Shown one piece after another: positions 4,766 to 30,552 of a stretch of 64,000 nucleotides of DNA (position 1 is the stretch's first letter; every line of letters starts with the position of its first letter). The stretch comes from Spongiibacter sp. IMCC21906. GTDB taxonomy: Bacteria; Pseudomonadota; Gammaproteobacteria; Pseudomonadales; Spongiibacteraceae. The notes beneath the pieces were generated by a model. It had not been told where the DNA came from. It saw only the letters and a program-made list of their open reading frames with translations, and searched no databases. The DNA lies in NCBI RefSeq assembly GCF_001010805.1, contig NZ_CP011477.1, forward strand, positions 124,001 through 188,000, read 5' to 3'. The translations under genes were made by a program, and so were the position numbers.

Positions 4766-6256
4766 TCGTTATCCCAGATACCCCTACTCCTCCGTCATTT
4801 CGAACGCTTACTTCCACCCCCGTCATCCCGGACGCACTTACCCCTCCGTCATCCCGGACGCGATAGCGAGCCGGGATCCAGTTACTCGGTGGCATGTTTT
4901 ACCCTAGGCAGATATTCAAAGTGCGGTGGTTTACTGGATACCGGCTCGGGGGCCGGTATGACGACAACGGGGTTACCGACATGCAGAAAGCTTTGCCCAA
5001 ACTTTCTCAGTATCTCAGACACCCCCACCCCCACTTTCCTCATCCCGGACACGCTGAACCCCACCTTCGTCATCTCGGCCACACTTACTCCCCTCGTCAT
5101 CCCGGACGCGATAGCGAGCCGGGATCCAGTTGCTCGGTGAAATGTTTTACCCCAGACAGATATTCAAAGTGCGGTGGTTTACTGGATACCGGCTCGAGGG
5201 CCGGTATGACGAAATAAAACCAATGACCCGCAACCTTCGTTATCCCATACGCGCCGATCCCCACTTTCCTAATCCCGGACGTGCTAACCCCCACCTACGT
5301 CATCTCGGATGCACTCCCCCTCTGTCATCCCGGACGCTATAGCGAGCCGGGACCCAGTTGCTCGGTGAAATGTTTTACCCCAGACAGATATTCAAAGTGC
5401 GGTGGTTTACTGGATACCGGCTCGAAGGCCGGTATGACGAAACAAAACCAAGGGCCCGCAACCTTCGTTATCCCAGATACCCCTACTCCTCCGTCATTTC
5501 GAACGATTACTTCCACCCCCGTCCTCCCGGACGCGCTGATCCCCACCTTAGTCATCTCGGATGCACTTCCCCCTCTGTCATCCCGGACGCGATAGCGAGC
5601 CGGGATCCAGCTGCTCCGGGGAATGCTTTACCCCAGGCAGATATTCAAAGTGCGGTGGTTTACTGGATACCGGCTCGGGGCCTGCCCCGGCCTACGAGCC
5701 GGGGGCCGGTATGACGACAACGGGGTTACCGGCATGCAGAAAGCTTTGTCCAAATTTTCTCAGTATTTCAGATGCCCCCATCTCCACTTACGTCATCCCG
5801 GATGCACTCCCCCTCTGTCATCCCGGACGCGATAGCGAGCCGGGATCCAGCTGCTCCGGGGAATGCTTTACCCCAGGCAGATATTCAAAGTGCGGTGGTT
5901 TACTGGATACCGGCTCGAGGGCCGGTATGACGACAAAAACCAAGGGGCCGCAACCTTCGTCATCTCGGACGCGCCGATCCCCACCTTCGTCATCTCGGCC
6001 ACACTTACTCCCCCCGTCATCCCGGACGCGACAGCGAGCCGGGATCCAGCTGCGCCAGGTAATGCTTTACCCTAGACAGATATTCAAAGTGCGGTGGTTT
6101 ACTGGATACCGGCTCGGGGGCCGGTATGACGAAATAAAACCAATGTCCCGCAACCTTCGTTATCTCGGACGCGCTTACCTCCCACCTACGCCATCTCGGA
6201 CGCACTTCCCCCTCGTCATCCCGGACGCGACAGCGAGCCGGGATCCAGTTACTCCG
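4766..6256 (+). repeat. REPIN-like array 1 (A-spacer-B units)
   Basis: Six full units plus one orphan A module. Units lie at about 4848-4963, 5096-5210, 5324-5439, 5577-5716, 5817-5931 and 6017-6130, with the half unit at 6218-6248. Each unit is palindrome A (GTCATCCCGG...CCGGGATCCAG), a ~50-nt spacer containing TTTACCCCAGACAGATATTC or a close variant, then inverted palindrome B (CTGGATACCGG...CCGGTATGACG). Unit 4 has a longer B with a nested hairpin insert. Linkers contain extra left arms of A such as CTTCGTCATCTCGGACGCG. All apparent ORFs here are translations of the repeat. This fills the whole urtA to sensor-kinase gap apart from about 200 bp at 6257-6450, which hold no recognised promoter. 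Confidence 0.9.
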
Positions 6257-6450
6257 TGGCATGAGGCGGTGTATGCAAAACCCAAACATGGTTCGGCTTT
6301 TGCAGTAATCCTCACAAGATAGTGGCCATAATTCGATCTTAGCTGGGCATAAGCCAGGCAGGGATCTAACCACTTAACGACAAAAATTAGCTTCCATTTT
6401 ATTTATCGAGGGAGCCTGTAACTCGCCAAAGCTCAGGCACATCTTTTTTT

Positions 6451-9400
6451 ATGACTAAGCAGCGCCAGAACAATGCCCCCGCATCTCCCCCGGCGCAGCA
6501 GCGCGTATTTCGGGTGCGGCGCAGCTATAACCGCTGGGTAGCAAACCAAACCCTGGAAGATTACGCGCTGCGCTTTACTGCAAAAAGCGCCAGAAAATGG
6601 TCGCCTTCACGGGTTTCTCATACCGCATTAGGGGCTATTTCTTTCTTAGCATTGGAGGCTATTGGCGGGGCTATCACGCTGAGCTACGGCTTTAGTAACA
6701 CCGTGGCGGCAGTGATGGTGGTCGGGCTAATTATCTTTTTGACGGGCCTGCCAATTTGCTATCACGCCTCAAAACAGGGCGTAGATATTGATCTGCTCAC
6801 TCGTGGTGCAGGGTTTGGTTATATCGGCTCCACCATCACTTCACTTATCTATGCGTCGTTCACGTTTATTTTCTTTGCCATCGAAGCCGCCATCATGGCC
6901 TTGGCGCTGGAACTGACCCTGAACATTCCCTTGGAATACGGCTACTTCATCAGTGCGGTGGTGGTTATTCCGCTGGTGACCCACGGTATTACCCTGATCA
7001 GTCGCTTTCAGGTCTGGACCCAACCCCTGTGGGTTGTGCTGCAATTACTGCCGCTGATATGCATTGCTTTTCAGGCTGACGAAGCCATGAGTAATTGGAC
7101 CAATTTCACCCCCGCCGGTCAGTCATCTGGCTTTAATCTGCTCGCTTTTGGCGCAGCCTCGGCGGTCATTCTGTCGCTGGTCGCGCAAATTGGTGAGCAA
7201 GTCGATTTTCTCCGCTTTTTACCCCACCAAGACAAACCCGATATGCGTTGGTGGCTGTCACTAATTGCCGCTGGTCCCGGTTGGATTATCAGCGGCATTA
7301 TTAAAATTCTGATCGGTTCGTTTTTAGCGGTACTCGCACTGCAGCATGGCATCCCGATAGAAGAAGCCTCTGACCCTAACCGAATGTATCTGATTGCATT
7401 TAGTTATCTCAACGGCAGCCCTCAATTGAGCCTGTTGTTGGTAGGCGTATTCGTGGTGTTGTCGCAGCTTAAGATTAACGTTACCAATGCCTACGCGGGA
7501 TCAATTGCCTGGTCCAACTTTTTCTCTCGCCTTACCCACAACCATCCTGGTCGAGTGGTCTGGCTGGTCTTTAATGTCGCCATTGCTTTGTTATTAATGG
7601 AACTGGGAATTTACCGGGTACTGGAAGAAATTCTCAGCGTCTATTCCATTATTGCCTTGGCCTGGGTGGGTTCATTGGTTGCCGATCTGGTTATTAATCG
7701 TCCTCTTGGGCTTCGGCCTAAAACCATGGATTTTAAGCGCGCCCATCTCTACGACATCAACCCAGTGGGAGTAGGCTCGATGATCATCGCCTCTACCCTG
7801 GGATTTATGGCGCATCAACATCAGTTTGGCGAAATCGCCCAGGCATTGGCCTCGTTCATCGCCCTTGGCAGCACCTTTATCACCGCACCTCTTATTGCCT
7901 GGATCACCAAAGGCAAATACTACATTGCCCGAGAGCCGGTAATATTCAGCGACCGCAAAGATATGCGTTGCTGTATTTGCTACCATCATTTTGAAGTGGA
8001 AGACATGACCCATTGCCCGGCCTATGCCGGAGCTATTTGCTCGTTGTGCTGCTCGCTGGATAGTCGTTGCCACGATATGTGCAAGACCAACTCGCGCTTG
8101 GCCGAGCAGCTCACCAGCACGTTAAGCTTTCTGTTACCTACCAACTGGATCCGTATACTCAACACCCGAATGGGCCATTTTCTGGGTCTGTTTTTGCTGA
8201 ACAGCTTTATGATCGCCGGGGTATTGGGGGTGGTCTATGTACAGATCACCATTGATGAAGGCATGGACGGTGCCGCCGCAGCCAGCGCGCTAAGCAATGT
8301 CTTTTTTATTCTGCTGATTGTTTCCGGCGTACTCGCGTGGATGTTTGCCTTAGTCCATGACAGTCGCCGGGTCGCGCAGGAAGAAACCCAGCGACAGACA
8401 GAGTTGTTGACCACCGAAATTGAAGCCCACATCCAAACCGACCTAAAACTGCAACAAGCCAAGGAAGCAGCGGAAGCCGCGAACAAAGCCAAAAGCCGCT
8501 ACCTAACCGGGATCAGTCACGAGCTGCGCTCACCGCTAAATGCCATATTGGGTTACGCCCAGTTATTGGAAAAAGACCCCGCCATTCCCCGCAATCGCCA
8601 AGAAGCACTTAGCGTCATTCGCCGTAGCAGCGAGCACCTTGCCGACTTGATTGAAGGACTGCTGGATATTTCCCGCATAGAAGCGGGGCGTCTCGACTTG
8701 GCCAGCGGCAACGTTCATCTCGGCAATCTGCTCGACCAAATCGTGAGCATGTTTCAGATGCAGGCCCAAAGCAAAGGGATTCGCTTTCAGTTTGATCGTA
8801 AAACACCACTACCCGAAACCGTCCGCACCGATGAAAAACGGCTGCGGCAAATTCTGATCAACCTCATCTCCAATGCCATTAAATACACCCACCAGGGCAG
8901 CGTGGAATTTACCGTCAGCTACCGCAATCAAGTGGCAGAATTCTCCATTCGCGATACCGGCGAGGGCATTGATAAAGACGATATGGAACGGATCTTTCGC
9001 CCCTTTGAACGAGTCCGCAAAACCGGCGCGGTACATGTTGCTGGCACCGGGCTCGGTCTCACTATCACCCGGCTGCTCACCGACATTATGGGCGGTGACT
9101 TGAGCATTAGCAGCCAACCGGGGCAAGGCACCCACGCCAAGACGATGTTAATGCTACCCAGCAGTAATAAGCTGACCAGCACATCCCCCGCCGAACGCAA
9201 AATATGGGGATATCAGGGCGAGCAAAAAACCGTGTTTGTTGTCGACGACGAACCCAGCCACCGCGGCTTACTCAACGATATATTAACGCCCCTAGACTTT
9301 GACGTAATACAAGCCCCCGACGCTGAAACCTGCTTAGATATGCTGAGCTACTTTGACAATAAACCACAAATTTATCTGCTGGATATTTCCATGCCCGGCA

Positions 9401-9858: not shown

Positions 9859-10763
9859 GTGTGGTTAAGCGCAAAAAAGATGTGGTACTGATAGTCGACG
9901 ACTCCCCGGAAACCCTGGGGATGCTTAACGACACCCTGGACGAAGCCGGTGTGACAGTGCTGGTTGCACTCGAAGGTAATCAGGCCCTGACCATCGCCGC
10001 CAACATCACCCCAGATGTAATTTTAATGGATGCGCAAATGCCCGTTATGGATGGCTTTGAAGCCTGTCGGCAAATTAAAGCCAACCGGGATTTAGCCCAC
10101 ATTCCCGTTATTTTTATGACCGGCCTTAGCGATACCGAAAGCATTGTTAAAGGCTTTGAAGCGGGCGGCGTAGACTACATCACCAAGCCCATTCGAGGCG
10201 AAGAACTCATTGCCAGAATGCGCGTGCATCTGAGCAACGCCAGACTCACCCTTAGCGCCAGACTCGCGCTAGACTCGGCAGGACAGTATCTGATTTCCGC
10301 CTCGCCAACCGGCAACTTACTCTGGGCCACCCCGCAAGCCTATCAACTGTTTGAAAACGCCGGGCTGGATGAAGACTGGCTGGCCAGCGAACTCCCCACC
10401 CAGTTACGACAAGTACTTGCGCCCCACTACAACAAAGAAAAAAGTCTCAAGCTAAACGCCGGCAACAAGCCGCTGGAAGTACGCTACATCAGCCAAACCG
10501 AACCCGAAGAATTTTTACTGCAAATCATCGACCTTGAACGACCCAGTGATATTGAAATGCTCCGGGCCGCCCTACCCGTCACCGAGCGAGAAGGTGAAGT
10601 CTTACTGTGGATCGCCAAAGGCAAAACCAATCGGGAAATAGGCACCATCCTCGGCACCAGCCCCCGTACCGTTAACAAACATTTAGAACAATTGTTTAAA
10701 AAACTGTACGTAGAAAATCGTACCGCCGCCGCCATTATTGCCCTCAAACACCTGCAAAACTAA
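9855..10763 (+). CDS. Response regulator, receiver plus LuxR-type HTH
   Basis: Cytoplasmic transcription regulator of 302 residues. The receiver occupies ~8-125 (VLIVDDSPETLG, phosphoacceptor Asp in VILMDAQMPVMDGF, lysine in YITKPIRGEE). A middle region without a recognised fold follows, then a C-terminal LuxR/GerE helix-turn-helix (LPVTEREGEVLLWIAKGKTN ... SPRTVNKHLEQLFKKL). I chose the GTG at 9855, which overlaps the kinase stop as GTGA, indicating translational coupling. A longer ORF upstream runs inside the kinase gene and is rejected. It is almost certainly the output partner of the preceding hybrid kinase, and urtABCD is the most likely target by position. Confidence 0.9.
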   Translation: MSVVKRKKDVVLIVDDSPETLGMLNDTLDEAGVTVLVALEGNQALTIAANITPDVILMDAQMPVMDGFEACRQIKANRDLAHIPVIFMTGLSDTESIVKGFEAGGVDYITKPIRGEELIARMRVHLSNARLTLSARLALDSAGQYLISASPTGNLLWATPQAYQLFENAGLDEDWLASELPTQLRQVLAPHYNKEKSLKLNAGNKPLEVRYISQTEPEEFLLQIIDLERPSDIEMLRAALPVTEREGEVLLWIAKGKTNREIGTILGTSPRTVNKHLEQLFKKLYVENRTAAAIIALKHLQN

Positions 10764-10845
10764 ATGCTTTCCTTAGGCCAATGAATGGAGATTGGCGACA
10801 GTTGCAAGGAAACATATTGTTCGGAGGGTTATGTACTCCGTAACA

Positions 10846-11893
10846 CTGGATACCGGCTCGGAAGCCGGTATGACGGCACGATAGTTGTGACGGTAAACTT
10901 TCGCCATCCCAGACACGCCTGCCTCTCGGCACCCCCACGCCTAGCCTCGCTCGCCATCCCGAACGCGCTCTCCACACTCCGTCATCCCGGACGCGTTCTC
11001 CATACTCCGTCATCCCGGACGCGATAGCGAGCCGGGATCCAGCTGCTCGATGGCATGTTCTACCTCAGGCAGATATTCAATGTACGGTGGTTTACTGGAT
11101 ACCGGCTCGGGGGCCGGTATGACCGAAAAAGCAGCGATACGAACTCCTGCGCAACAACGCGCCCTGCTCACCACAAACTCTCTCATCATCCCAGACGCGC
11201 CTTCCCTCTGGCACCCCCAACACTCCTACCCTCGTCATCCCGGACGCGTTCTCCATACTCCGTCATCCCGGACGCGACAGCGAGCCGGGATCCAGCTGCT
11301 CGGTGGCATGTTCTACCTCAGGCAAATATTCAAAGTGCAGTGGTTTACTGGATACCGGCTCGGGGGCCGGTATGACTACAAAAGGAACACGATGATCAGA
11401 AGGTCTTACAAAGCTTTCGTCATCCAGAGTGTACCCTTCACACTTTGTCTTCCCGGACGCACCCTCCACCATGAAAGCCTTCGCACCTTTACCAAAGCCA
11501 GACTTTGTCACCCCAGACGCCCTCCCCACCTCGTCATCCCGGACGCGTTCTCCATACTCCGTCATCCCGGACGCGACAGCGAGCCGGGATCCAGCTGCTC
11601 GGTGTCATGTATTACCTCAGGCAGATACTCAAAGTGCGATGGTTTACTGGATACCGGCTCGGGGGCCGGTATGACTACAAAAGGAACACGATGAGCAGAA
11701 GGCCTTACAAAACGTTCGTCATCCAAGGTGCACCCTCCACACTTTGTCGTCCCGGATGCACCCTCCACCATGAAAGCCTTCGCACCTTTACCAAAGCCAG
11801 ACTTTGTCACCCCAGACGCCCTCCCCACCTCGTCATCCCGGACGCGTTCTCCATACTCCGTCATCCCGGACGCGATAGCGAGCCGGGATCCAC
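10846..11893 (+). repeat. REPIN-like array 2
   Basis: Array in the same A-spacer-B orientation as array 1. It begins with an orphan B (10846-10877), then A/B pairs with A modules ending near 11043, 11296, 11595 and 11893 (the last without B). Spacers contain TCTACCTCAGGCAGATATTC or variants. A block at about 11385-11600 is repeated almost exactly about 299 bp further on, a recent tandem duplication. A linker with CGAAAAAGCAG...GAACTCCTGCGCAACAACG near 11125 recurs near 16310 and 18800 in other arrays. The remaining 11894-12041 holds only the leader of the next gene. Confidence 0.88.
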
Positions 11894-12041
11894 CTGCTCG
11901 ACGCTCAGTTTTACTGATAGCCTATTTACACATCGGTAGCTTTTATCGTCGCTGGCTAAGCCACGCTGTTATTTTTAAAAAGCAGGACAAATAGATTAGG
12001 CTAGGTTTCACGCCCCCTTACAGCAAGAGGCCAAAAACCAC

Positions 12042-12368
12042 ATGAAATACATCTTCGAAGTGCACATTAAACCCGGTCACAGCGCCGAGGAGTATGCCGA
12101 TGCCTGGGTACGGGCGAGTGAGCTGATCCAACAAGCGCCGGGGGCAAAAGGCACCGAGCTGCATCGTAAAATGGACGACCCCAATGTGTTAATTGCCATC
12201 GCTAGCTGGGAAAGCAAAGCTCAGCGAGATGCCATGGAGAGTCAGCCCAACGAAACGATAAAAGCCATTATCCAAAGTGCGGGGCCCTGCTGTGAAGTTC
12301 ATCCAATTGGTGAATTTGACGAGCCGGAATGGGTCGTGATGCCACCCGGAATGAGCCAATCATCGTGA
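12042..12368 (+). CDS. Antibiotic biosynthesis monooxygenase (ABM)-fold protein
   Basis: Small cytoplasmic protein of 108 residues with the dimeric ferredoxin-like ABM fold: N-terminal strand YIFEVHIKPGHSAEEYADAW, a central GAKGTELHRKMDDPNVLIAIASWES, and the following helix SKAQRDAMES. Proteins of this type oxidise quinol-like substrates without cofactor or serve as uncharacterised dimeric alpha-beta barrel proteins, so the substrate cannot be named. A weak AGAGG site precedes the ATG. It stands alone between a repeat array and the convergent trmB gene. Confidence 0.7.
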   Translation: MKYIFEVHIKPGHSAEEYADAWVRASELIQQAPGAKGTELHRKMDDPNVLIAIASWESKAQRDAMESQPNETIKAIIQSAGPCCEVHPIGEFDEPEWVVMPPGMSQSS

Positions 12369-12375
12369 AACAAGC

Positions 12376-12396
12376 GGTGGGCATACATTACCCACC
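12376..12396. terminator. Hairpin between convergent genes
   Basis: GGTGGG-CATACATTA-CCCACC forms a 6-bp GC-rich stem in the 34-bp gap between the convergent ABM-like gene and trmB. No good T-tract follows on either strand, so this is only a candidate bidirectional terminator. Confidence 0.4.
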
Positions 12397-12402
12397 CTGC
12401 TT

Positions 12403-13101
12403 TCAAGAAACGCGTTCAAACAACAAATCCCACACTCCGTGGCCTAGCCTTTCACCACGTTTTTCAAACTTGGTCACTGGCCGATAATCAGGTCGTGGTG
12501 AAAACGCGCCATCCCCGGCTTGGTTGCTAAAACCCTCGGCACTGCCCATCACCTCCATCATATGTTCAGCGTAATTTTCCCAATCCGTTGCCAAATGCAG
12601 TACGCCGCCGATCTTGAGTTTTTGACGAAGCATTTGCACAAACGGGGACTGTATTAAGCGACGCTTATGATGGCGCTTTTTATGCCACGGATCAGGGAAG
12701 TAGATTTGCACCCGGCTTAAACTGGCATCGGCAATACAACGCTCTAAAACCTCAACAGCGTCATCGCAATAGGCGCGCAGATTTTCCAGTTCCGCCTCAT
12801 CAATCAAATGCATCAACCGACCCACGCCGGGACTGTGCACCTCTACACCAATAAAATCCTGATCTGGAGCCGCAGCAGCCATGGTCGCCAATGAATCGCC
12901 CATGCCAAAGCCGATTTCCAGCGCAACAGGCGCCTCCCGACCAAACACCTGCGAAAAATCCTGCAAGCCATTTTCAAGCAACAAGCCTTTGCTCGGCCAA
13001 TGTAGGTCGTAGGCCCGCTTCTGCCCTTCCGTCATCCGACCGGTACGAAGCACAAAACTGCGGATACGGCGCAGGGGTCGTTCTTGTAGTTGTTCAGTCA
13101 T
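12403..13101 (-). CDS. trmB: tRNA (guanine-N7-)-methyltransferase TrmB
   Basis: SAM-dependent enzyme that methylates G46 in tRNA. The 232-residue protein contains the TrmB hallmarks [19 protein letters not shown] near the N-terminus, the SAM site [12 protein letters not shown], and the catalytic/tRNA-binding block [18 protein letters not shown], then [13 protein letters not shown]. The ATG at 13101 shares one base with the stop codon of the upstream DUF423 gene (TAATG), indicating coupled translation. A longer ORF begins within the upstream gene and is rejected. Confidence 0.96.
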
Positions 13102-13589: not shown

Positions 13590-14302
13590 CTGGATACCGG
13601 CTCGGAGCCTACGAGTCAGTAGCCAGTATGACGATACGATGGCTGTGAAGATAAATCCTCGTCATCCACGGTGCACTCCCCACACTTTTTCACCCCAGAC
13701 GCGCCCTCCACACTCCGTCATCCCGAACGCGCCCTCCACACCCGTCATCCCGGACGCGATAGCGAGCCGGGATCCAGATACTCGGTGGAATGTATTACCT
13801 CAGGCAGATAGTCAACGTGCAGCGGTCTACTGGATACCGGCTCGGAGGCCGGTATGACGACAAAGGAGCACGATGAGCAGAAGGTCTTACAAAACGTTCG
13901 TCATCCCAGACGCCCCCTCTACACTTTGCCATTCTAGGTGCGCCCTCCACACCCGTCATCCCGGACGCGACAGCGAGCCGGGATCCAGTTTCTCGGTGGA
14001 ATGTCTTACCTCAGGCAGATATTCAAAGTGCGGTGGCTTACTGGATACCGGCTCGGAGGCCGGTATGACTACAAAAAGAACACGATGAGCAGAAAGCCTT
14101 ACAAAACTTTCTGCATCCCAGACACGCCTGCCTCTACACCCCCACGCCTAGCCTCGCTCGCCATCCCGAACACGCTCTCCACACTCCGTCATCCCGGACG
14201 CGACAGCGAGCCGGGATCCAGCTGCTCGGTGGCATGCCTTACCTCAGGCAGATATTCGAAGTGCGGTGGCTTACTGGATACCGGCTCAGGGGCCGGCATG
14301 AC
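13590..14302 (+). repeat. REPIN-like array 3
   Basis: Starts with a B module carrying a partial version of the nested insert (about 13590-13633). Three A-spacer-B units follow, with A modules ending near 13777, 13985 and 14221 and B modules ending near 13860, 14070 and 14302. Linkers share GATGAGCAGAAGGTCTTAC with arrays 2, 4 and 5. The orientation is the same as arrays 1 and 2. The array ends a few bases before the rpoH terminator. The other part of this gap (13479-13589) contains nothing recognisable. Confidence 0.88.
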
Positions 14303-14326
14303 AAGAAACACATTTTCTCCAGACAC

Positions 14327-14380: not shown

Positions 14381-15232
14381 CTATGCTTCCATTGCCGCCC
14401 GAAGTTTTTTCATTGCCGCTTGCTCTAATTGGCGAATCCGCTCAGCAGATACACCATAGCGGTCAGCCAAGTCATGCAAGGTGGACTTGTTCTCGCCCAG
14501 CCAACGACATTGCAGAATATCCCGGCTCCGCTCATCCAGCTCACTCAAAGCATAGCTAAGCTGCTGATGGTTACTCGCTTCCCAGTCGCTGGATTCCAGC
14601 AGGTCAGCGGGGTCATTACTGCGATCCTCAAGATAATGGACGGGAGCAACCGGACCGGTTTCATCATCCGCATCGGCATCAAAACCAATATCAACCGAGC
14701 TGAGCCGACCTTCCATACGGCGGACTTCAGCCACATCCACACCCAAATCTTCTGCAACAGCTTGGACTTCGCTATTGTTCAACCATGCCAGCTGCTTCTT
14801 AGCGCCGCGTAGATTAAAGAACAACTTACGCTGAGCCTTGGTGGTAGCCACTTTTACGATGCGCCAGTTACGCAGCACATACTCGTGAATCTCGGCTTTA
14901 ATCCAATGCACCGCAAAAGACACCAAACGCACGCCTTTTTCGGGATCAAAGCGTTTAACGGCCTTCATCAGGCCCACATTACCTTCTTGAACCAGATCAG
15001 CCTGAGGCAAGCCATAGCCGTTGTAGCTTTTGGCAATATGCACTACAAAACGCAGATGGGACATAACCAGCTGACGCGCGGACTCTAAGTTGCCTTGGTA
15101 AAACAACTCTTCGGCCAGTTCTTTTTCCCGCTCAGCGGTCAGAACCGGAATACTGCTTACAGATTGAATATATGCAGAGAGGTCACCACCTGGCACAAGC
15201 TGCTGTAGCGGCTGCAGTTGGGTGCTGCTCAT
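14381..15232 (-). CDS. rpoH: RNA polymerase heat-shock sigma factor RpoH, copy 1
   Basis: Sigma-32, which directs RNA polymerase to heat-shock promoters. The protein has 283 residues (E. coli 284) with region 1.2/2 ([38 protein letters not shown]), region 2.4, the RpoH box [13 protein letters not shown], and region 4 ([15 protein letters not shown] ... [18 protein letters not shown]). The ATG at 15232 follows AGGAGG with 7-nt spacing; an in-frame ATG 78 bp upstream overlaps the predicted promoter and is rejected. The protein is identical to copy 2 at 17063-17914, while the DNA differs at about 17 sites by my reading, all synonymous. Copy 1 is farther from ftsX and separated from copy 2 by a REPIN array. 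Confidence 0.95.
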
Positions 15233-15281
15233 TGCACATCCTCCTAAATTCGTGTTGTTACCCTTTTCAGGGCGGGCACTT

Positions 15282-15310
15282 ATTAGAGTACCATTTGCCG
15301 CAAAGTTCAA
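15282..15310 (-). promoter_or_regulatory. Predicted sigma-70 promoter of rpoH copy 1
   Basis: On the minus strand, TTGAAC, 17 nt, TCTAAT ends about 50 nt before the rpoH start codon. The same promoter is fully conserved ahead of copy 2, so both copies should be expressed independently of ftsX. Confidence 0.6.
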
Positions 15311-15423: not shown

Positions 15424-16982
15424 ACGCCCTTCGTCATCCTAGGCGCGTCCTCCACCTCCACACTCTGTCATCCCGGACGCGCCTCCACACCCGTCATCCC
15501 GGACGCGACAGCGAGCCGGGATCCAGCTGCTCGATGGAATGTTTTACCTCAGGCAGATATTCAAAGTGCGGTGGTTTACTGGATACCGGCTCGGAGGCCG
15601 GTATGACAACAAAAGGCAGTAACGAAAAGGCTTACAAGGCTAAAACTTAACCTCTTAAGTTATTCCGATCGCGTCTTCTCTCGTACACTCGCCACCGGAT
15701 ACCATCTCCACTCCTTTCACTTCCCGCGACTAACCTCTTCGTCATCCCCGACGTACCTTCCACACTCCGTCATCCCGGACGCGACAGCGAGCCGGGATCC
15801 AGCTGCTCGGTGGCATGTTTTACCTCAGGCAGATAGTCAACGTGTGGTGGTTTACTGGATACCGGCTCGGAGGCCGGTATGACGACAAAGGAGCACGATG
15901 AGCAGTAGGTCTTGCAAAACTTTCGTCATTCTTGGCGCGCCCTTCAGACTTCGACCCTCTAAGTTCCCTCCACACTCCGTCATCCCGGACGCGACAGCGA
16001 GCCGGGATCCAGCTGCTCGGTGGCATGCCTTACCTCAGACAGATATTCAAAACGTGCGGTGGTTTACTGGATACCGGCTCGGAGGCCGGTATGACGACAA
16101 AGGAGCACGATGAACAGAAGGCCTTACAAAACGTTCGTCACCCAAGATGGACCCTTCACACTTCGATTCCCAAAGCTCCCTCCACACTCCGTCATCCCGG
16201 ACACCACAGCGAGCCGGGATCCAGCTGCTCGGTGGAATGTTTTACTTCAGGCAGATATTCAAAGTGCGGTGGTTTACTGGATACCGGCTCAGAGGCCGGT
16301 ATGACCGAAAAAGCAGTGATGCGAACTCCTGCGCAACAACGACGCCCTTCTCACCACGAACTCGCCCGTCATCCCGGACGCGACAGCGAGCCGGGATCCA
16401 GTTGCTCGGTGGCATGTTTTACCTCAGGCAGATAGTCAAAGTGCGGTGGTTTACTGGATACCGGCTCGAAGGCCGGTATGACGACAAAGGAACACGATGA
16501 GCAGAAGGTCTTACAAAACGTTCGTCACCCAAGATGCACCCTCCACACTTCGTCATCCCAGACCCTCCCTACACACTCTGTTATCCCGGACGTGCCCTCC
16601 ACACCCATCATCCCGGACGCGGCAGCGAGCCGGGATCCAGCTGCTCGGTGGCATGTCTTACCTCAGGCAGATAGTCAAAGTACGGAGGTTTACTGGATAC
16701 CGGCTCGGAGGCCGGTATGACGACAACGGAGCACAATGAGAGAAGGTCTTGCAAAACTTTCGTCATTCTTGGCGCGCCCTTCAGACTTCGACCCCCTAAG
16801 TTCCCTCCACACTTTGTCATCCCAGACGGCGCCCTCCACACCCGTCATCCCGGACGCGGCAGCGAGCCGGGATCCAGCTGCTCGGTGGAATGTCTTGCCT
16901 CAGGTAAATATTCAACGCGCGGTGGTTTACTGGATACCGGCTCGGAGCCTGCCCCGGCCTACGAGCCGGGGACCGGCATGAC
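15424..16982 (+). repeat. REPIN-like array 4, between the two rpoH copies
   Basis: About seven A-spacer-B units in plus orientation, with A modules ending near 15525, 15801, 16012, 16223, 16400, 16639 and 16877. The last B (about 16929-16982) carries the nested GCCTGCCCCGGCCTACGAG insert. The first ~350 bp (15424-15780) recur after rpoH copy 2 at about 18108-18460, so the rpoH duplication includes part of the array. A non-repeat block at about 15640-15730 (TTCCGATCGCGTCTTCTCTC) is shared only with the copy-2 flank. The rest of the inter-rpoH gap, 15311-15423, is the duplicated rpoH leader. Confidence 0.88.
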
Positions 16983-17062: not shown

Positions 17063-17914
17063 TTACGCTTCCATTGCCGCCCGAAGTTTTTTCATTGCCG
17101 CTTGCTCTAATTGGCGAATCCGCTCTGCAGACACACCATAGCGATCAGCCAAGTCATGCAAGGTGGATTTGTTCTCGCCCAGCCAACGACATTGCAGAAT
17201 ATCCCGGCTCCGCTCATCCAACTCACTCAAAGCATAGCTAAGCTGCTGATGGTTACTCGCTTCCCAATCGCTGGATTCCAGCAGGTCAGCGGGGTCATTA
17301 CTGCGATCCTCAAGATAATGGACGGGAGCAACAGGACCGGTTTCATCATCCGCATCGGCATCAAAGCCAATATCAACCGAACTGAGCCGACCTTCCATAC
17401 GGCGGACTTCAGCCACATCCACACCCAAGTCTTCGGCAACAGCTTGAACTTCGCTATTGTTCAACCATGCCAGCTGTTTCTTAGCGCCGCGTAGATTAAA
17501 GAACAACTTACGCTGAGCCTTGGTGGTAGCCACTTTTACGATGCGCCAGTTACGCAGCACATACTCGTGAATCTCGGCTTTAATCCAATGCACCGCAAAA
17601 GACACCAAACGCACGCCTTTTTCGGGATCGAAGCGTTTAACGGCCTTCATCAGGCCCACATTACCTTCTTGAACCAGATCAGCCTGAGGCAAGCCATAAC
17701 CGTTATAGCTTTTGGCGATATGCACTACAAAACGCAGATGGGACATAACCAGCTGACGCGCGGACTCTAAGTTGCCTTGGTAAAACAACTCTTCGGCCAG
17801 TTCTTTTTCCCGCTCAGCGGTCAGAACCGGAATACTGCTTACAGATTGAATATATGCAGAGAGGTCACCACCTGGCACAAGCTGCTGTAGCGGCTGCAGT
17901 TGGGTGCTGCTCAT
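17063..17914 (-). CDS. rpoH: RNA polymerase heat-shock sigma factor RpoH, copy 2
   Basis: Second rpoH gene encoding the same 283-residue protein as copy 1. It has the same AGGAGG ribosome binding site, promoter and terminator. The first half of the gene and the leader are identical to copy 1 at the DNA level. Most of the ~17 silent differences lie in the last ~430 bases, toward the terminator. This copy occupies the canonical position downstream of ftsX and is therefore likely the ancestral one, although a 1.1-kb REPIN array separates them. No amino-acid change between the copies means that both are under purifying selection, the duplication is recent, or gene conversion keeps them alike. Confidence 0.95.
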
Positions 17915-17963
17915 TGCACATCCTCCTAAATTCGTGTTGTTACCCTTTTCAGGGCGGGCACTT

Positions 17964-17992
17964 ATTAGAGTACCATTTGCCGCAAAGTTCAA
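17964..17992 (-). promoter_or_regulatory. Predicted sigma-70 promoter of rpoH copy 2
   Basis: TTGAAC, 17 nt, TCTAAT on the minus strand, identical to the promoter ahead of copy 1 and offset by exactly 2682 bp. Confidence 0.6.
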
Positions 17993-18107: not shown

Positions 18108-19226
18108 GCCCTTCGTCATCCTAGGCGCGTCCTCCACACTCTGTCATCCCGGACGCGCCCCCACACCCGTCATCCCGGACGCGACAGCGAGCCGGGATCC
18201 AGCTGCTCGGTGGCATGTTTTACCTCAGGCAGATATTCAACGCGCGGTGGTTTACTGGATACCGGCTCGGAGGCCGGTATGACAACAAAAGGCAGTAACG
18301 AAAAGGCTTACAAGGCTAAAACTTAATCCCTTAAGTTATTCCGATCGCCTCTTCTCTCGTACACTCGCCACCGGATACCATCTCCACTCCTTTCACTTCC
18401 CGCGACTAGCCTCTTCGTCATCCCCGACGTACCCTCCACACTCCGTCATCCCGGACGCGATAGCGAGCCGGGATCCAGCTGCTCGGTAAAATGTATTACC
18501 TCAGGCAGATATTCAATGTGCGGTGGTGTACTGGATACCGGCTCGGAGGCCGGTATGACGACAAAGGGGCACGATGAACAGAAGGCCTTACATAACTTTC
18601 GTCATCCAAGGTGCACCCTCCACACTTCAATCCTCAAAGCTCCCTCCACACTTTGTCGTCCCAGACGCGTTCTCCACACTCCGTCATCCCGGACGCGACA
18701 GCGAGCCGGGATCCAGCTGCTCGATGGAATGTTTTACCTCAGGCAGATAGTCAATGTGCGGAGGTCTACTGGATACCGGCTCGGAGGCCGGTATGACCGA
18801 AAAAGCAGTGATGCGACCCTGCGCAACAACGACGTCCTTCTCACCACAAACTCGCCCGTCATCCCGGACGCGATATCGAGTCGGGATCCAGTTGCTCGAT
18901 GGAATGTTTTACCTCAGGCAGATAGTCAATGTGCGGAGGCTTACTGGATACCGGCTCGGAGGCCGGTATGACGACAAAGGGGCACGATGAACAGAAGGCC
19001 TTACATAACTTTCGTCATCCAAGGTGCACCCTCCACACTTCAATCCTCAAAGCTCCCTCCACACTTTGTCGTCCCAGACGCGTTCTCCACACTCCGTCAT
19101 CCCGGACGCGACAGCGAGCCGGGATCCAGCTGCTCGGTGGCACGTCTTACCTCAGGCAGATAATCAAAGTGCGGTGGTTTACTGGATACCGGCTCGGGGG
19201 CCGGTATGACGACAAAGGAGCACGAG
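18108..19226 (+). repeat. REPIN-like array 5, between rpoH copy 2 and ftsX
   Basis: Five A-spacer-B units in plus orientation with A modules ending near 18200, 18478, 18717, 18890 (a mutated core, GATATCGAGTCGGG) and 19128. A block at about 18550-18722 is repeated almost exactly at 18963-19135, a recent 413-bp tandem duplication. The last B module ends three bases before the ftsX stop codon. The array separates two genes that are normally co-transcribed in gammaproteobacteria. Confidence 0.88.
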
Positions 19227-20939: not shown

Positions 20940-21625
20940 TTCAATACTGGATCCCGGATCGCTATCGCGTCCGGGATGACACTTGTGGTGATATTGCGTT
21001 GCTTCAGCATGTAGCTTTGAATCCAGTCTAGGACGACAAATATTATGCTAACACTCGCAACACCATTTTCTGTCACACAAGCGAACGTCATGTTTTTCGT
21101 CACCCAGCATCGCTTTGTCATCAACCCGGCTTCACCTTCTTAGTTAGCCCAGCCTCGTTTTCTTCATCACCCCGGCCTCATTTTCTTCGTCATCCCGGCC
21201 CCCGAGCCGGGATCCAGCAGACCTCGCAACCATCCACATCCACTGTGCCACAAGCCAACACCGCAGCAGGATCCCGGATCGCTGTCGCGTCCGGGATGAC
21301 ACTTGTGGCGATTACCTCACTCAGGCCGCTCTTCCCGCCTCTATGCTCTTCGTCACCCAGCATCGCTTTGTCATCAACCCGGCTTCACGTTCTTAGTTAG
21401 CCCAGCCTCATTTTCTTCGTCATCCCGGCCTTGTTTTCTTCGTCATCCCGGTCCCGTTTTCTTCGTCATCCCGGCCCCCGAGCCGGGATCCAGCAGACCT
21501 CGCAGCCATCCGCATCCACTGTGCCACAAGCCAACACCGCAGCTGGATCCCGGATCGCTGTCGCGTCCGGGATGACGCTTGTGGCGATATGGCGTTGATT
21601 CAGTACTTAGCTCTGAACCTGGTCC
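20940..21625 (+). repeat. REP palindromes between ftsE and ftsY
   Basis: Scattered A-type palindromes rather than regular REPINs. Examples are CTGGATCCCGGATCGC...TCCGGGATGAC near 20946-20980, 21268-21300 and 21542-21577, and a variant GTCATCCCGGCCCCCGAGCC near 21193 and 21470. A block containing GTCACCCAGCATCGCTTTGT occurs twice (about 21099 and 21352). Runs of half palindromes, TTTTCTTCGTCATCCCGGCC, are repeated in tandem near 21413-21475. No gene is visible here. Confidence 0.85.
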
Positions 21626-21699
21626 AGGATGGCGCACTTAAACAATCCAGATTTTTCCGATTTGGCTAACGCTGTTCTCCGCCGACCAAACAACGCACC

Positions 21700-22024
21700 A
21701 CTAAACCCATCGGCCTCAGCGCGACCTCCTACACCGCTCCCTGTAGGAGCGGGCGCCGACCGCGACAGCCTACCTCAGCACCACCAAAACCCATCGGTCT
21801 CAGCGCGACCTCCTACACCGCTCCCTGTAGGAGCGGGCGCCAACCGCGACAGCCTACCTCAGCACCACCGAAACCCATCGGCCTCAGTGCGACCTCCTAC
21901 ACCGTTCCCTGTAGGAGCGGGCGCGCCGACCGCGACAGCTTACCTCTGCACCACCAAAACCCATCGGCCTCAGCGCGGCCTTCTACACCGCTCCCTGTAG
22001 GAGCGGGCGCCGACCGCGACAATA
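21700..22024 (-). repeat. Family-2 tandem repeat downstream of ftsY
   Basis: Four copies with periods of 84, 84 and 86 bp, starting at about 21726, 21810, 21894 and 21980. Each contains the 8-bp stem CTCCTACA-CCGCTCCC-TGTAGGAG followed by CGGGCGCCGACCGCGACAG and a conserved linker with CCCATCGGCCTCAGCGCGAC. This repeat is unrelated in sequence to the A/B modules and resembles the GTAGGAGCGGG-type REPs known from pseudomonads. It ends seven bases before the ftsY stop codon and probably acts as 3' end structure for the ftsY mRNA. Confidence 0.88.
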
Positions 22025-22030
22025 AACCGT

Positions 22031-23951: not shown

Positions 23952-23978
23952 CCCCCAGCTCGACAAGCGAACTGGGGG
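23952..23978. terminator. Hairpin between convergent rsmD and the MvaT-like gene
   Basis: CCCCCAG...CTGGGGG forms a 7-bp stem immediately after the rsmD stop codon, in the 37-bp gap between convergent genes. The T-tracts are weak, so it is a candidate bidirectional terminator. Confidence 0.45.
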
Positions 23979-23988
23979 CCGCGCAAAC

Positions 23989-24360: not shown

Positions 24361-24659
24361 CGTTATGGATAACCTTTTTAATTAAAAACCGAAGTCATAA
24401 AGACCATTATCAATTGTAAAAGTGCTTATTTATTGAAAATAATTAAAACAGCGCAATCCTTGCGGCTTTATAATTCGGCCGGATTTTACCGAATAATTTT
24501 ATTAATCACAATTTCAGCTTATTAACTCATTATGCCGAGCTACTAATTATTTAAACGGATTTTTATTTTTTATCAGACAGACCATATCCGCTTCATAAAT
24601 ATTTTTTACTTCAACACTTCATTATTCAGAATAGCCCAGCACTACAATACTTCGCTGTG
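24361..24659. promoter_or_regulatory. AT-rich leader of the MvaT-like gene
   Basis: About 300 bp with long A/T runs (for example TTTAAACGGATTTTTATTTT) and no open reading frame, between the nucleoid-protein start codon and a repeat array. It is the most AT-rich stretch in this half of the window and a likely binding region for an H-NS-type protein. No single promoter could be chosen with confidence. Confidence 0.4.
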
Positions 24660-26571
24660 GTCATACCGGCCTATCTCTTTATACTGGCACCTTTCTTTGC
24701 TTTACACCGTCATACCGGCCTCCGAGCCGGTATCCAGTAAACCACCCAGCGTAATATAAACACCGAGGGTAATTTAACTTCCGAGCGACTGGATCCCGGA
24801 TCGCTATCGCGTCCGGGATGACTAGATACGGCGATAATTCTTTGTCATCATACCGCCCTATCTTTATACCAGCACCTTTCTTTGCTTTCACCGTCATACC
24901 GGACTCTCTCTTTATACCGGCACCTTTCTCTGCTTTACATCGTCATACCGGCCTCCGAGCCGGTATCCAGTAAACCACTCAACGTAATATAAACACCGAG
25001 GATAATTTAACCCGAGCAGCTGGATCCCGGATCGCTATCGCGTCCGGGATGACTAGATACGGCGATAATTCTTTGTCGTCATACCGCCCTATCTTTATGC
25101 CAGCACCTTTCTTTTCTTTACATCGTCATACCGGCCTCCGAGCCGGTATCCAGCAAACCACCCAACGTAATATAAACACCGAGGGTAATTTAACTTCCGA
25201 GCAGCTGGATCCCGGATCGCTATCGCGTCCGGGATGACGAAAAGCTTTGGCAAAACCTCTTCCCAAATTCTGACAGAATGACAAAACACTAAAACGCCTC
25301 TTTGCAGTCATACCGCCCTCTCTCTTTATACCGACACCTTTCTGTGCTTTACACCGTCATACCGGCCCCCGAGCCGGTATCCAGTAAATCACCCAACGTA
25401 AGATAAACACCGAAGGTAATTTAAATCCCGAGCAACTGGATCCCGGATCGCTACCGCGTCCGGGATGACAAAACACTAAGAGGCCTCTTTGCAGTTATAC
25501 CGGACTCTCTCTTTATATCGGTACCTTTCTTTGCTTTACACCGTCATACCGGCCTTCGAGCCGGTATCCAGCAAACCACCCAACGTAATATAAACGCCGA
25601 GGGTAATTTAATCCGAGCAGCTGGATCCCGGATCGCTACCGCGTCCGGGATGACTCATGCAGAGTAGACGCACCCGGAATGACGAAAAGCTTTGGCAAAA
25701 CCTCTTCTCAGATTCTGACAGGATGACAGAGCATTAGGACACCTCTTTGTAGTCATGCCACCCTCTTTATTTATCCCGACACCTTTCTTTGCTTTACACC
25801 GTCATACCGGCCCCCGAGCCGGTATCCAGTAAACCTCCCAACGTAATATAAACTCCGAGGGTAATTTAATCCGAGCAGCTGGATCCCGGATCGCTACCGC
25901 GTCCGGGATGACTCATGCAAAGTAGACGCACCCGGAATGACGAAAAGCTTTGGCAAAAGCTCTTCCCAAATTCTGACAGGATGACAGAGCATTAGGACAT
26001 CTCTTTGCAGTCATACCACCCTCTTTATTTATCCCGACACCTTTCTTTGCTTTACACCGTCATACCGGCCTCCGAGCCGGTATCCAGCAAACCACCCAAC
26101 GCAATATAAACTCCGAGGATAATTTAAATCCCGAGCAACTGGATCCCGGATCGCTATCGCGTCCGGGATGACAAAACACTAAGAGGCCTCTTTGCAGTTA
26201 TACCGGACTCTCTCTTTATACCGGCACCTTTCTCTGCTTTACATTGTCATACCGACCCCCGAGCCGGTATCCAGTAAATCACCCAACGTAATATAAACAC
26301 CGAGGGTAATTTAACTTCCGAGCAGCTGGATCCCGGCTCGCTACCGCGTCCGGGATAACTCATGCAGAGTAGACGCACCCGGAATGACGAAAAGCTTTGG
26401 CAAAACCTCTTCCCAAATTCTGACAGGATGACAGAGCATTAGGACATCTCTTTGTAGTCATACCGGCCTTCGAGCCGGTATCCAGTAAACCACCCAACGT
26501 AATATACACACCGCAGATAATTTAACTTCCGAGCAGCTGGATCCCGGATCGCTATCGCGTCCGGGATGACT
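24660..26571 (-). repeat. REPIN-like array 6, reversed orientation
   Basis: About nine composite units written B-spacer-A on the plus strand, the reverse of arrays 1-5. GTCATACCGGCC...CCGGTATCCAG is followed by a spacer with TAAACCACCCAACGTAATAT and GAGGGTAATTTAACTTCCGA, then CTGGATCCCGGATCGCTA...GTCCGGGATGAC. The B modules lie near 24708, 24942, 25125, 25356, 25543, 25800, 26058, 26246 and 26456. The spacer ends (TAAACCACC and CCGAGCAG) match the reverse complement of arrays 1-5, but its middle is different. Linkers contain CGAAAAGCTTTGGCAAAACC and TCTCTTTATACCGGCACCTT. The array fills the gap up to about 26571; the next 140 bp precede manC without a recognised signal. Confidence 0.9.
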
Positions 26572-26715
26572 CGGGGAGAGCTAGCGGCATCGATGACTTG
26601 GGTAGGGGTAGTCGCCGGGACGACTACAATGGAGAAAAGAATCCAGAATAAGCAAAGAAAAAGGGCGTACCTAGGTTGACGATAAAACACAACAACCTAG
26701 AACAAAGGAACCCCA

Positions 26716-28122: not shown

Positions 28123-28266
28123 ATCATAACTCCTTTAAAAATAGTTTTTGTTCAACGTGTTCCTGTACTGAACCAAGGTGAGCATACAAAAAGATATTTG
28201 CTCTACCTATCGCTATTGGGACTCTTTCATTCCGCGCCAAGTATAAACACCAAATGTTAAACTCAA

Positions 28267-28903
28267 CCCCGAGCAACTGGATCCCGGATCGCTACCGCGT
28301 CCGGGATGACTCATGCAGGGTAGGCGGCCCCGGAATGACGAAAGACTTTGCGCAAAACCTCTTCCCAAATCCTGACAGAATGACAGAGCATTAGGACGCA
28401 TCTTTGTCGTCATGCCCGCACCTTTCTTTTCTTTACATTGTCATACCGACCTCCGAGCCGGTATCCAGTAAACCACCGAGCGCAATATAAACACCGTGGT
28501 TACATTCAACCCGAGCTGCTGGATCCCGCCCGGATCGCTATCGCGTCCGGGATGACTCATGTAGGGTAGGCGACCCCGGAATGACGAAAAGCTTTGCGCA
28601 AAACCTCTTCCCAAATCCTGACAGAATGACAGAGCATTAGGACGCATCTTTGTCGTCATGCCCGCACTTTTCTTTACATCGTCATACCGGCCTCCGAGCC
28701 GGTATCCAGTAAACCACCGGGCGCAATATAAAAACCGCGCTTAAATCCCACCCCGAGCAACTGGATCCCGGATCGCTATCGCGTCCGGGATGACTTGGGC
28801 GGGAGTAGGCACGAAGGTCAGAGGGTAATCCCCCAGTAGGCGCACCTATCCCTTTTCTTACAGCGGTCACCCCGGTCCCCGAGCCGGGGTCCAGTAAACC
28901 AGA
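28267..28903 (-). repeat. REPIN-like array 7
   Basis: Three composite units in the reversed (B-spacer-A) orientation, the first missing its B. The A modules are near 28276-28310, 28521-28556 and 28760-28793. Spacers contain AATATAAACACCG and CCCGAGC, as in array 6. A B-like variant, GTCACCCCGGTCCCCGAGCC, ends the array at about 28867-28893, just past the galE stop codon. A block around AAAGCTTTGCGCAAAACCTC is repeated about 235 bp apart. Confidence 0.85.
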
Positions 28904-28920
28904 GGACTCAAGCCATACTT

Positions 28921-29934
28921 TTACACATAGCCATCGGGGTTCTGACTTTGCCATCGCCAAGTATCTTCCATCATTTTCTCTAAACTGCTATCCGCAGTCC
29001 AACCTAGCAAAGCTTTTGCCTTTTCAGCATCCGCCCAAAACGCTGGCAAGTCACCACCGCGTCGTGGTGCAAATTGATAAGCAATTTTCTGACCAGTGAC
29101 GCTTTCAAAACTATTCACCATCTCAAGCACTGAAACGCCTTTGCCCGTGCCTAGGTTTAATGGGTACAACCCCGGTTCATCCAATAAGCTTAATGCTCGA
29201 CAATGGCCATCGGCCAAATCCATAACATGCAAATAATCCCGTACACAGGTGCCATCCGCTGTGTCGTAATCATTCCCAAAAATCGCCAACTCCGGCAACT
29301 TTCCTACCGCCACCCGGCTAATAAACGGCATTAAATTATTGGGAATTCCCTTTGGGTCCTCGCCAATTAAACCCGACGGGTGAGCGCCAATGGGATTAAA
29401 ATAACGTAGCGCCGCTATCGCCCAGCGCTCGTCGGCAACCGACAAATCCATTAACATCCGTTCGACCATCGCCTTTGATGCCCCGTAGGGACTGGATGGC
29501 TGGCCAAGCGGCATGGACTCTTCATAAGGAACCGGCGCATCGGGCCCATACACCGTAGCCGAAGAACTAAACACCAGCTTAAATACGCCCGCTGCCGCCA
29601 TCGCCTCACACAAGACCAAGGTGCCATGCACATTGGTCTCGTAATACAACAGTGGTTTTTCGACACTCTCACCAACCGCTTTAAGCCCCGCAAAATGAAT
29701 AACCGCATCAATATTGTGGTTAGAAAATATATCCGACAACACTGCAGTATCACGAATATCCCCTTGGATAAAAAAAGGACTTTCGCCGATAATCTTTTCA
29801 ATACGATCAAATACAAGTGCAGAGCTATTTACCAAGCTGTCTAAAACCACCACATCATGGCCTAAAGCCAGCAACTCCACTACAGTGTGGCTGCCAATAT
29901 AACCAGCGCCACCTGTTACTAATATCTTTGCCAT
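28921..29934 (-). CDS. galE: UDP-glucose 4-epimerase GalE
   Basis: NAD-dependent extended SDR enzyme interconverting UDP-glucose and UDP-galactose for the polysaccharide. The protein has 337 residues with the Rossmann motif TGGAGYIGSHT, the strand VIHFAGLKAVGES, and the catalytic YxxxK in SPYGASK preceded by VFSSSATVYG. I chose the ATG at 29934 (AGGTCG upstream); a TTG two codons earlier extends the frame but is less likely. Repeat arrays flank it on both sides. Confidence 0.95.
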   Translation of the reverse strand: MAKILVTGGAGYIGSHTVVELLALGHDVVVLDSLVNSSALVFDRIEKIIGESPFFIQGDIRDTAVLSDIFSNHNIDAVIHFAGLKAVGESVEKPLLYYETNVHGTLVLCEAMAAAGVFKLVFSSSATVYGPDAPVPYEESMPLGQPSSPYGASKAMVERMLMDLSVADERWAIAALRYFNPIGAHPSGLIGEDPKGIPNNLMPFISRVAVGKLPELAIFGNDYDTADGTCVRDYLHVMDLADGHCRALSLLDEPGLYPLNLGTGKGVSVLEMVNSFESVTGQKIAYQFAPRRGGDLPAFWADAEKAKALLGWTADSSLEKMMEDTWRWQSQNPDGYV

Positions 29935-29994
29935 AAACAACGACCTAAACTAAATCTGATAGACATAAACACCTTGGTTACATTCAACCCGAGC

Positions 29995-30552
29995 TACTGG
30001 ATCCCTGATCGCGTCCGGGATGACTAGGTGTGACGATACCTCCTTGTCGTCATACCGGCCTCCGAGCCGGTATTCAGTAAACCACCGAGCACAATATAAA
30101 CACCGTGGTTACATTCAACCCGAGCTGCTGGATCCCGGATCGCGTCCGGGATGACTAGGTGCGACGATACCTCCTTGTCGTCATACCGGCCTCCGAGCCG
30201 GTATCCAGTAAACCACCCAACGTAATATAAACACCGAGGGTAATTTAACTTCCGAGCTGCTGGATCCCGGATCGCTTATCGCGTCCGGGATGACTAGGTG
30301 CGACGATACTTCCTTGTCGTCATACCGGCCTCCGAGCCGGTATCCAGTAAACCACCCAACGTAATATAAACACCGAGGGTAATTTAACTTCCGAGCTGCT
30401 GGATCCCGGATCGCTTATCGCGTCCGGGATGACTTCGGCGGGAATAGGCGCGTCTGGGATGGCTTCGTCGGGAGTAGGCGCGTCTGGGATGGCTTCGTCG
30501 GGAGTAGACGCGTCCGGTATGACGAAGGTTGGAGCAGGCGCCCGAGGATGAC
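29995..30552 (-). repeat. REPIN-like array 8 with a 34-bp tandem repeat
   Basis: Starts with an orphan A (29998-30023), followed by three B-spacer-A units at about 30051-30155, 30180-30285 and 30320-30434. The A cores vary (GGATCGCGTCC and GGATCGCTTATCGCGTCC). The last unit runs into three copies of a ~34-bp repeat containing GGATGGCTTCGTCGGGAGTA at about 30435-30515, which look like amplified half palindromes. The array ends about 27 bp before the ugd stop codon. Confidence 0.87.

Follow-up and report, generated by a model that had tools for sequence, protein, structure and literature searches.

Organization of the repeat units

The DNA analysed here (the window) is a stretch of 64,000 nucleotides from Spongiibacter sp. 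IMCC21906, corresponding to C1:124,001-188,000 of a 3.48-Mb genome in two contigs. Between positions 4,766 and 30,552 of the window lie two copies of rpoH, the ftsX gene, and galE, together with arrays of a repeat of about 115 bp (Table 1). Each repeat unit consists of one palindrome (A), a spacer, and a second, inverted palindrome (B). The units are likely to be head-to-head heterodimers of CGTC-tagged repetitive extragenic palindromes (REPs) that expanded in one species, spread as whole units, and were then reworked by recombination of the arrays.

A strict pattern for the full unit finds 42 units in the window, 33 of them in this interval, with lengths of 112-117 bp and spacers of 49-54 nt. 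The organization into A, spacer and inverted B over about 115 bp, which had been proposed from the letters of the DNA alone (the sequence-only reading), is therefore borne out. A looser pattern for the core of the unit, with spacers of 49-54 nt, gives 52 units in the window and 37 in the interval. The 23 core-pattern units at 4.8-19.2 kb all run from A to B and carry a TACCTCAGGCAGATATTC-type middle in the spacer, and the 13 at 24.7-30.4 kb all run from B to A with a AACGTAATATAAACACCGAG-type middle. These lineages agree with the earlier description of the arrays. The unit at 21.47-21.58 kb, however, is an A/A homodimer, and arrays are also found beyond the interval.

The layout of the unit is C/GTCAT-hairpin A-CCAG, a spacer of about 52 nt, and CTGG-hairpin B-ATGAC/G, with the slashes marking its edges. 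The stems of both palindromes have the form ATNCCGG/CCGGNAT, where N is C in palindrome A (ATCCCGG) and A in palindrome B (ATACCGG), so that they start and end with AT. Of 242 palindromes of one pattern, 240 have complementary bases at the third pair of the stem (C-G in 138, A-T in 98, and T-A in 4), and the remaining two have A with C. Read by eye, the stem of B is 8 bp long with a loop of about six bases; in A the outer stem measures 7 bp and the loop is longer. GTCAT is preceded by C in 75 of 104 units, and ATGAC is followed by G in 86 of 105, which makes CGTC the outer tag. The CCAG inner ends are demanded by the search pattern, and are hence present by construction in the retrieved units. 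Outer arms without a simple partner in the retrieved DNA are found for A in 9 of 118 cases and for B in 13 of 110, several of the latter being forms with a long loop. There was no match to Rfam in the window. For 22 units, RNAalifold yielded a covariation term of 0.94, and no trustworthy helix within the middle of the spacer.

Spacer lineages and spread of the units

In the whole genome, the pattern GGNATCCAG-N44-60-CTGGATNCC has 125 matches and the same pattern read backwards has none, which excludes chance. A narrower A/B pattern has 116 matches. With a slightly wider range of spacers, 121 units were retrieved, comprising 113 A/B, four A/A, three C/C (C being a third type of palindrome), and one C/A; these fractions refer to the retrieved units. 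The spacer is 49-52 nt long in 109 of the 121 (range 44-54).

The units are found at 27 loci. At least two core-pattern units are present at 21 of these, although the core pattern misses variant units that some loci hold, for example at 1,438 kb. As judged with a simple open reading frame (ORF) caller, the flanking genes are co-directional at 18 loci, convergent at 5 and divergent at 4. One stretch of 5.7 kb, with two genes, has 13 core units, and the second contig (12.7 kb) has no unit. Most units (91 of 121) are located at 65-233 kb. Fifteen of the 27 loci fall within 166 kb, compared with a maximum of 9 in 5,000 simulations. After loci less than 10 kb apart are merged, the regional cluster is reduced to 4 of 16, which was reached in 1,721 of 5,000 simulations, and the regional clustering may therefore reflect local spread only. 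Near dnaA, 20 of the 27 loci lie within 400 kb (9 of 16 after merging, p = 0.004), a cut-off that was picked after the positions had been seen. The core unit pattern has no match in viral contigs, a 1.1-kb array stretch has none in plasmids, and the pattern of the spacer ends has none in a genome-contig collection, which may omit this genome.

The ends of the spacer, read from A to B, are CTGCTCGG next to A and GGTGGTTTA next to B. As the sequence-only reading had it, these ends are conserved and the middle is specific to the locus. For the 113 A/B units, at 24 loci, the spacers of one array have a mutual identity of 0.84 (392 pairs) and those of different arrays one of 0.51 (5,936 pairs), a difference matched by none of 2,000 label permutations, and the nearest spacer is from the same array for 101 of 109 units. 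With one representative per locus (276 pairs), the mean identity is 0.549, compared with 0.427 for shuffled spacers. The score is above the 99th percentile of the shuffles for 199 of these pairs, and 22 of the 24 lineages are more than 2 s.d. over the shuffled controls. Spacers mixed at random, or no more alike than random DNA, would have spoken against the sequence-only reading, and neither is the case. Since many lineages are alike beyond the shuffles, the different middles look like one spacer that has since diverged.

Mean pairwise identity among 22 of the 24 representatives (two were dropped because the full-unit pattern failed) is 0.89 for A, 0.81 for B, and 0.485 for the spacer. Within the spacer, it is 0.57 for the first 8 bases, 0.58 for the last 13 bases, and 0.39 for the middle. 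Conservation of the palindromes and the spacer ends is expected if the hairpins, the ends and the spacer length are the recognized features. The loop types of palindrome A mostly follow the spacer lineage. A long-loop form of B (about 36 nt) is present in seven units from six arrays (two of the three units of one array, and a single unit in each of the other five). As these arrays have unlike spacers, B modules may be exchanged between spacer lineages.

Several lineages recur at distant sites. The TACCTCAGGCAGATATTC lineage is found at 129-143 and 803-804 kb, another at 340, 558 and 575 kb, and a further one at 231, 1,784 and 2,105 kb. The homology beyond the unit was measured by ungapped extension, for the 102 of 113 units that could be delimited. 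In the 227 pairs of one lineage that are separated by more than 20 kb (spacer identity of at least 0.75), its median is 2 bases on the left and 4 on the right, with 75th percentiles of 6 and 4 and maxima of 41 and 150. For 2,884 far pairs of different lineages, the median is 1 base on either side. Far copies of one lineage therefore share the unit and a few flanking bases, and most would have dispersed as modules. Most distant copies are near-exact units of about 120 bases, with edges at C/GTCAT...ATGAC/G, and longer segments were copied in a few pairs of arrays. The target-site duplication typical of a miniature inverted-repeat transposable element (MITE) of a DDE transposon was not seen by eye at isolated units, which is weak evidence. 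The flanks of the far pairs, the clustering of the spacers and the hybrid array at rpoH (see below) support the earlier suggestion that whole units spread and were amplified locally.

Table 1. Repeat arrays and associated features in the window (positions of the window)
Feature	Position	Strand
Array, A to B; 5 core-pattern units, variant unit at 5,342-5,423, trailing A; between divergent genes	4848..6248	+
Array, A to B; 3 units, leading B, trailing A	10846..11893	+
Array, A to B; 3 units, leading B; downstream of rpoH copy 1	13590..14302	+
rpoH copy 1 (sigma-32)	14381..15310	-
Array, A to B; 7 units between the rpoH copies; hybrid of upstream and downstream arrays	15455..16947	+
rpoH copy 2	17063..17992	-
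Array, A to B; 5 units between rpoH copy 2 and ftsX	18114..19217	+
Homodimer unit A/A; unrelated-looking 49-nt spacer	21465..21576	.
Array, B to A on + strand; 9 units, AACGTAATATAAACACCGAG-type spacer	24709..26570	-
Array, same lineage as 24709..26570; 2 core-pattern units and partial ones, one side of galE	28277..28894	-
galE (UDP-glucose 4-epimerase), flanked by two arrays; above NCBIfam cut-off	28921..29940	-
Array, same lineage as 24709..26570; 2 core-pattern and degenerate units, other side of galE	29966..30433	-
Array, third palindrome type (ATTCCGG stems, C/C); 3 core-pattern units; outside the interval	54864..55692	.
Array, B to A; 8 core-pattern units; outside the interval	60276..62381	-
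Array, A to B; 4 core-pattern units; outside the interval	63312..63942	+

The array of the third palindrome type (54,888-55,649) also contains a palindrome, TTTCCCGCGAAAGCGGGAATCCAG, that is similar to the dRS3 repeat of Neisseria. An ORF of 326 amino acids (54,799-55,779) overlaps this array; it has no convincing family and is probably spurious. The region at 26-60 kb of the window has polysaccharide genes (guanylyltransferase, galE, sugar dehydrogenase, and Wzi- and Wzc-like proteins), with arrays on its flanks.

Relatives, the rpoH duplication and candidate enzymes

The exact unit pattern has no match in 17 congeners. A looser pattern for a single palindrome, whose variable gap could double-count a site, has 277 matches in this genome, 35 in congener G014, 14 each in G002 and G011, 2 in G007, 1 in G003, and none in the 12 others. 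CGTC palindromes are thus present in 5 of the 17 congeners. Outside the family, a genome of the same order (G050) has 16 matches. Draft assemblies can lose arrays; the counts in the three single-contig congeners are 35, 14 and 0. In a draw of 369 gammaproteobacterial genomes, the unit pattern is found in 32, with 125 matches in this genome and 13 in the next, and many of the single matches look like chance matches in coding sequence. The repeat population here looks expanded.

The partner of B varies in the relatives. In G011 and G002 this partner has G-C as its third pair, and in G011 the period is about 97 bp. Most palindromes of G014 have T-A at this pair, and their units are spaced differently. 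A B-like palindrome is thus common to the genus, joined to different partners, and one such form has expanded in this species. Several sites are shorter in G014. The orthologous site of the small array at 1,438 kb has about 231 bp, compared with 785 bp here. Three sites of the window, measured between the ends of tblastn matches, have about 300, 150 and 110 bp in G014 and 860, 1,236 and 2,456 bp here, the last including galE. Between ftsE and ftsY of G014, CGTC palindromes of the T-A type are located on both sides of a small ORF region, which by eye has some likeness to GIY-YIG-type endonucleases.

Full-length matches to rpoH number one in each of the 17 congeners, three of which have an extra match of about 42 bases, and two, in tandem, in this genome. 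The gene order around rpoH is the same in G014. The two copies differ at 19 of 930 nucleotides and encode identical proteins. The 19 differences are thus all silent, as if both genes were under constraint or had been converted. The ends of the duplication fall in arrays. The start of the array between the copies is 96% like the upstream array over about 500 columns, unique inter-unit sequence included, and its end is like the downstream array, with the terminator region in common. This hybrid would be the product expected from unequal crossing-over between arrays, and the arrays probably duplicated this heat-shock gene. The two 309-aa ORFs inside the arrays were also considered as insertion sequences, and this was rejected as both are rpoH. 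A lasting second gene for a heat-shock sigma factor would be unusual. In G014, about 110 bp without galE separate the guanylyltransferase and sugar dehydrogenase genes that flank it here. For galE, which lies between two arrays of the same lineage, arrival via recombination would be a candidate reading only.

The genome has three Y1 transposase genes (L001, L002 and L003). With 141.7 bits, L003 at C1:222,344 is the only one above the NCBIfam cut-off of 80 for REP-associated transposases, the other two having 70.0 and 67.5 bits. This canonical REP-associated tyrosine transposase (RAYT) adjoins REPs of the GTAGGAGC..GCGCC type (GTAG). REPs of this type are also seen in the window, as a separate GTAG-type family (GTAGGAGCGGGCGCC) at 21,695-22,021 and 35,151-35,546. 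CGTC palindromes do not flank any of the three Y1 genes on both sides within loci of about 3.3 kb, and the 3.3-kb locus of L001 has none at all. L002 (C1:749,932-751,618) is a Y1 gene broken in two, with GGGGACAG-type ends; only one flank has a CGTC unit, a single one at 751.5 kb and 87 bp past the second piece, which is a weak lead. L001 and L002 have GGGGTCAG and GGGGACAG near the gene. By eye, these fit the GGGGWSAS motif, which is reported for transposases associated with terminal inverted repeats (PMC3733652).

The Y1 family, PF01797, is found in 12 of the 18 genomes of the genus. No Y1 gene was detected in G002 at E <= 0.001, yet it has CGTC arrays (14 matches). The IS110-type family, PF02371, is found in 9 of the 18, some of them free of CGTC repeats, and is absent from G014 (35 CGTC matches). 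Neither family parallels the distribution of the CGTC repeats in the genus. Outside the window, 40 distinct ORFs flank arrays. There are Pfam matches for 31 of these at E <= 1e-8, none of them to a transposase, and one of the 9 unmatched ORFs is a broken Y1 fragment according to NCBIfam. The genes that flank arrays inside the window were scanned in part.

Relation to known repeats and a possible mechanism

The units have much in common with the CGTC REPs (Di Nocera, De Gregorio and Rocco 2013; PMC3733652). As described in that survey, these have the tag CGTC (or TGTC, CCTC), stems of 8-9 bp in which the first two pairs are almost always A-T, loops of 4-5 bases, and a CCA-type unpaired inner tail. 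Head-to-head dimers predominate, heterodimers being the rule in families 2 and 3, and the spacers, mostly of 20-100 bp, are usually conserved in head-to-head dimers. The authors state that CGTC heterodimers "apparently lack a dedicated transposase", report no CGTC-flanked transposase genes, and leave the mover open, with extinction possibly under way. The tag, the A-T start of the stem, the CCA(G) tail, the heterodimers with a spacer of conserved length, and the failure to find a transposase gene are shared with the units here. There are differences, however. Tandem arrays are common here, whereas clusters of CGTC REPs are rare outside Neisseria and Wolbachia (PMC3733652). This genome has many spacer lineages, the loop of A is longer, and the host is a gammaproteobacterium, whereas most described CGTC REPs are in alphaproteobacteria. 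The sequence-only reading had regarded the arrays as unusual. This holds for their density and tandem clustering, but not for the presence of two palindromes per unit, which is common in families 2 and 3. The CGTC REP heterodimer is known, and its array-forming, spacer-diversified expansion in one species is new; in full-text searches of open-licence papers, none of the titles listed describes this case. GTAG arrays are located beside exopolysaccharide genes in Thauera, according to the same survey.

In REPINs (REP doublets forming hairpins; Bertels and Rainey 2011; PMC3116915), an inverted pair of REPs is likewise the spreading unit, and tandem clusters including flanks are formed. Pseudomonas fluorescens SBW25 has 16 such clusters, the largest with four REPINs, as against the 13 core units in 5.7 kb here. 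However, REPINs have the GTAG tag and a cognate RAYT beside their clusters, while the tag here is CGTC and no such gene was found. The Neisseria intergenic mosaic elements (NIMEs) consist of dRS3 and RS elements of 30-160 bp in arrays of 200-2,700 bp, and have been suggested to promote gene insertion and rearrangement (PMC3898611; see also PMC6006769). They are similar in having palindromes that bound inserts of about 50 bp, long arrays, several insert families, and a proposed role in rearrangement. In comparison, dRS3 is ATTCCC(N8)GGGAAT rather than ATCCCGG/ATACCGG, and in the units here A and B differ and the inserts are of one ancestry, as judged by similarity. Clustered regularly interspaced short palindromic repeats (CRISPR) have near-identical direct repeats and spacers that are unique and unrelated, unlike the spacers here with their identity of 0.84 within an array.

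In the proposed mechanism, an activity supplied by an enzyme other than a RAYT would recognize the hairpins, most likely in single-stranded form as in the case of RAYTs and GTAG REPs, and would copy whole units into new intergenic sites. Unequal recombination or replication slippage would amplify each founder locally, together with some of its flank, and this amplification would keep the spacers alike inside an array. The spacers would be free to drift, since what counts is chiefly the palindromes together with the ends and the length of the spacer. Homology for later rearrangements would then be provided by the arrays.

Several observations weigh against this mechanism. Pairs within arrays have, by the ungapped measure, flanks with a median of 4 and 6 bases on the left and right (75th percentile 23 and 35), which weakens the contrast with distant pairs, and the unit pairs are not independent. 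The far pairs with long flanks reflect the copying of segments (139-143 versus 803 kb, 340 versus 558/575 kb, and 230 versus 2,105 kb), and the isolated unit at 1,784 kb has about 14 bases on the left and up to about 35 on the right in common with a unit at 230 kb. The spacer lineages at 2,061 and 2,581 kb (2 of the 24) are not clearly related to the others. The 10763-12403 site is larger in G014 than here, due to other DNA. Two orthologous intergenic regions of G014 hold CGTC repeats of their own, and the repeats are therefore not new to the lineage. No mobiliser was found, and movement is inferred from the boundaries only.

Some of these points would fit a history without transposition, in which old repeats, passed on vertically, were spread only through recombination, gene conversion and segmental duplication. 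The arrays clearly recombine, some distant ones share long flanks, congeners have related palindromes, some at orthologous sites, and the long-loop B stands in six arrays with unlike spacers. We nevertheless consider such a history unlikely, as most far pairs of one lineage share just the unit and about 2-4 bases, the unit at 1,784 kb is isolated, and several array sites are much shorter in G014.

The sequence-only reading had tied the units to the RAYT-mobilized REPINs of pseudomonads. Mobilization in trans by the GTAG-type RAYT (Y1/HUH) of this genome, which would make them ordinary REPINs, is in keeping with their form and size (PMC3116915), with the three Y1 genes, and with the broken Y1 fragment 87 bp from the 751.5-kb unit. 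This tie is not supported, however, and we rate such mobilization as quite unlikely. The tag is CGTC rather than GTAG, the canonical RAYT is located beside REPs of the GTAGGAGC type, and no Y1 gene is flanked by CGTC palindromes on both sides; the 2013 survey likewise reported no transposase gene with CGTC flanks (PMC3733652). Moreover, G002 has CGTC repeats with no detected Y1 gene, and several genomes with Y1 genes have no CGTC matches. The RAYT was rejected as the mover for these reasons. A phage or IS110-type recombinase could instead move or shuffle the units by acting on the palindromes, as has been proposed for the integrase of the Nf1 prophage, which is IS110-like. In Neisseria, dRS3 is counted as a CGTC-1 REP (PMC3733652) and is the integration target of Nf1, whose integrase has been suggested to cause rearrangement (PMC3898611). 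This explanation is very improbable here, because PF02371 is absent from G014 with its 35 CGTC matches and present in genomes free of CGTC repeats. The IS110-type recombinase, the only recombinase family searched, was rejected as the mover since PF02371 does not track the repeats.

The spread of CGTC heterodimers as whole units, followed by recombination of the arrays, is the reading that we prefer. A stronger form of it is possible, but should be seen as tentative. The units would be live miniature elements, copied whole by an enzyme that is neither of the Y1/RAYT nor of the IS110 type, and the arrays would act as hubs of recombination, through which nearby genes (rpoH, galE) are duplicated or inserted. 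If this is true, a mobile repeat with a mover yet to be named shapes gene content and the dosage of a core regulator. With the near-exact edges of the units, the shorter sites in a relative and the repeat-poor congeners, that mover could be sought through gene content within one genus. The pair of rpoH genes with identical proteins inside the arrays suggests that the repeats can alter the copy number of a core regulator.

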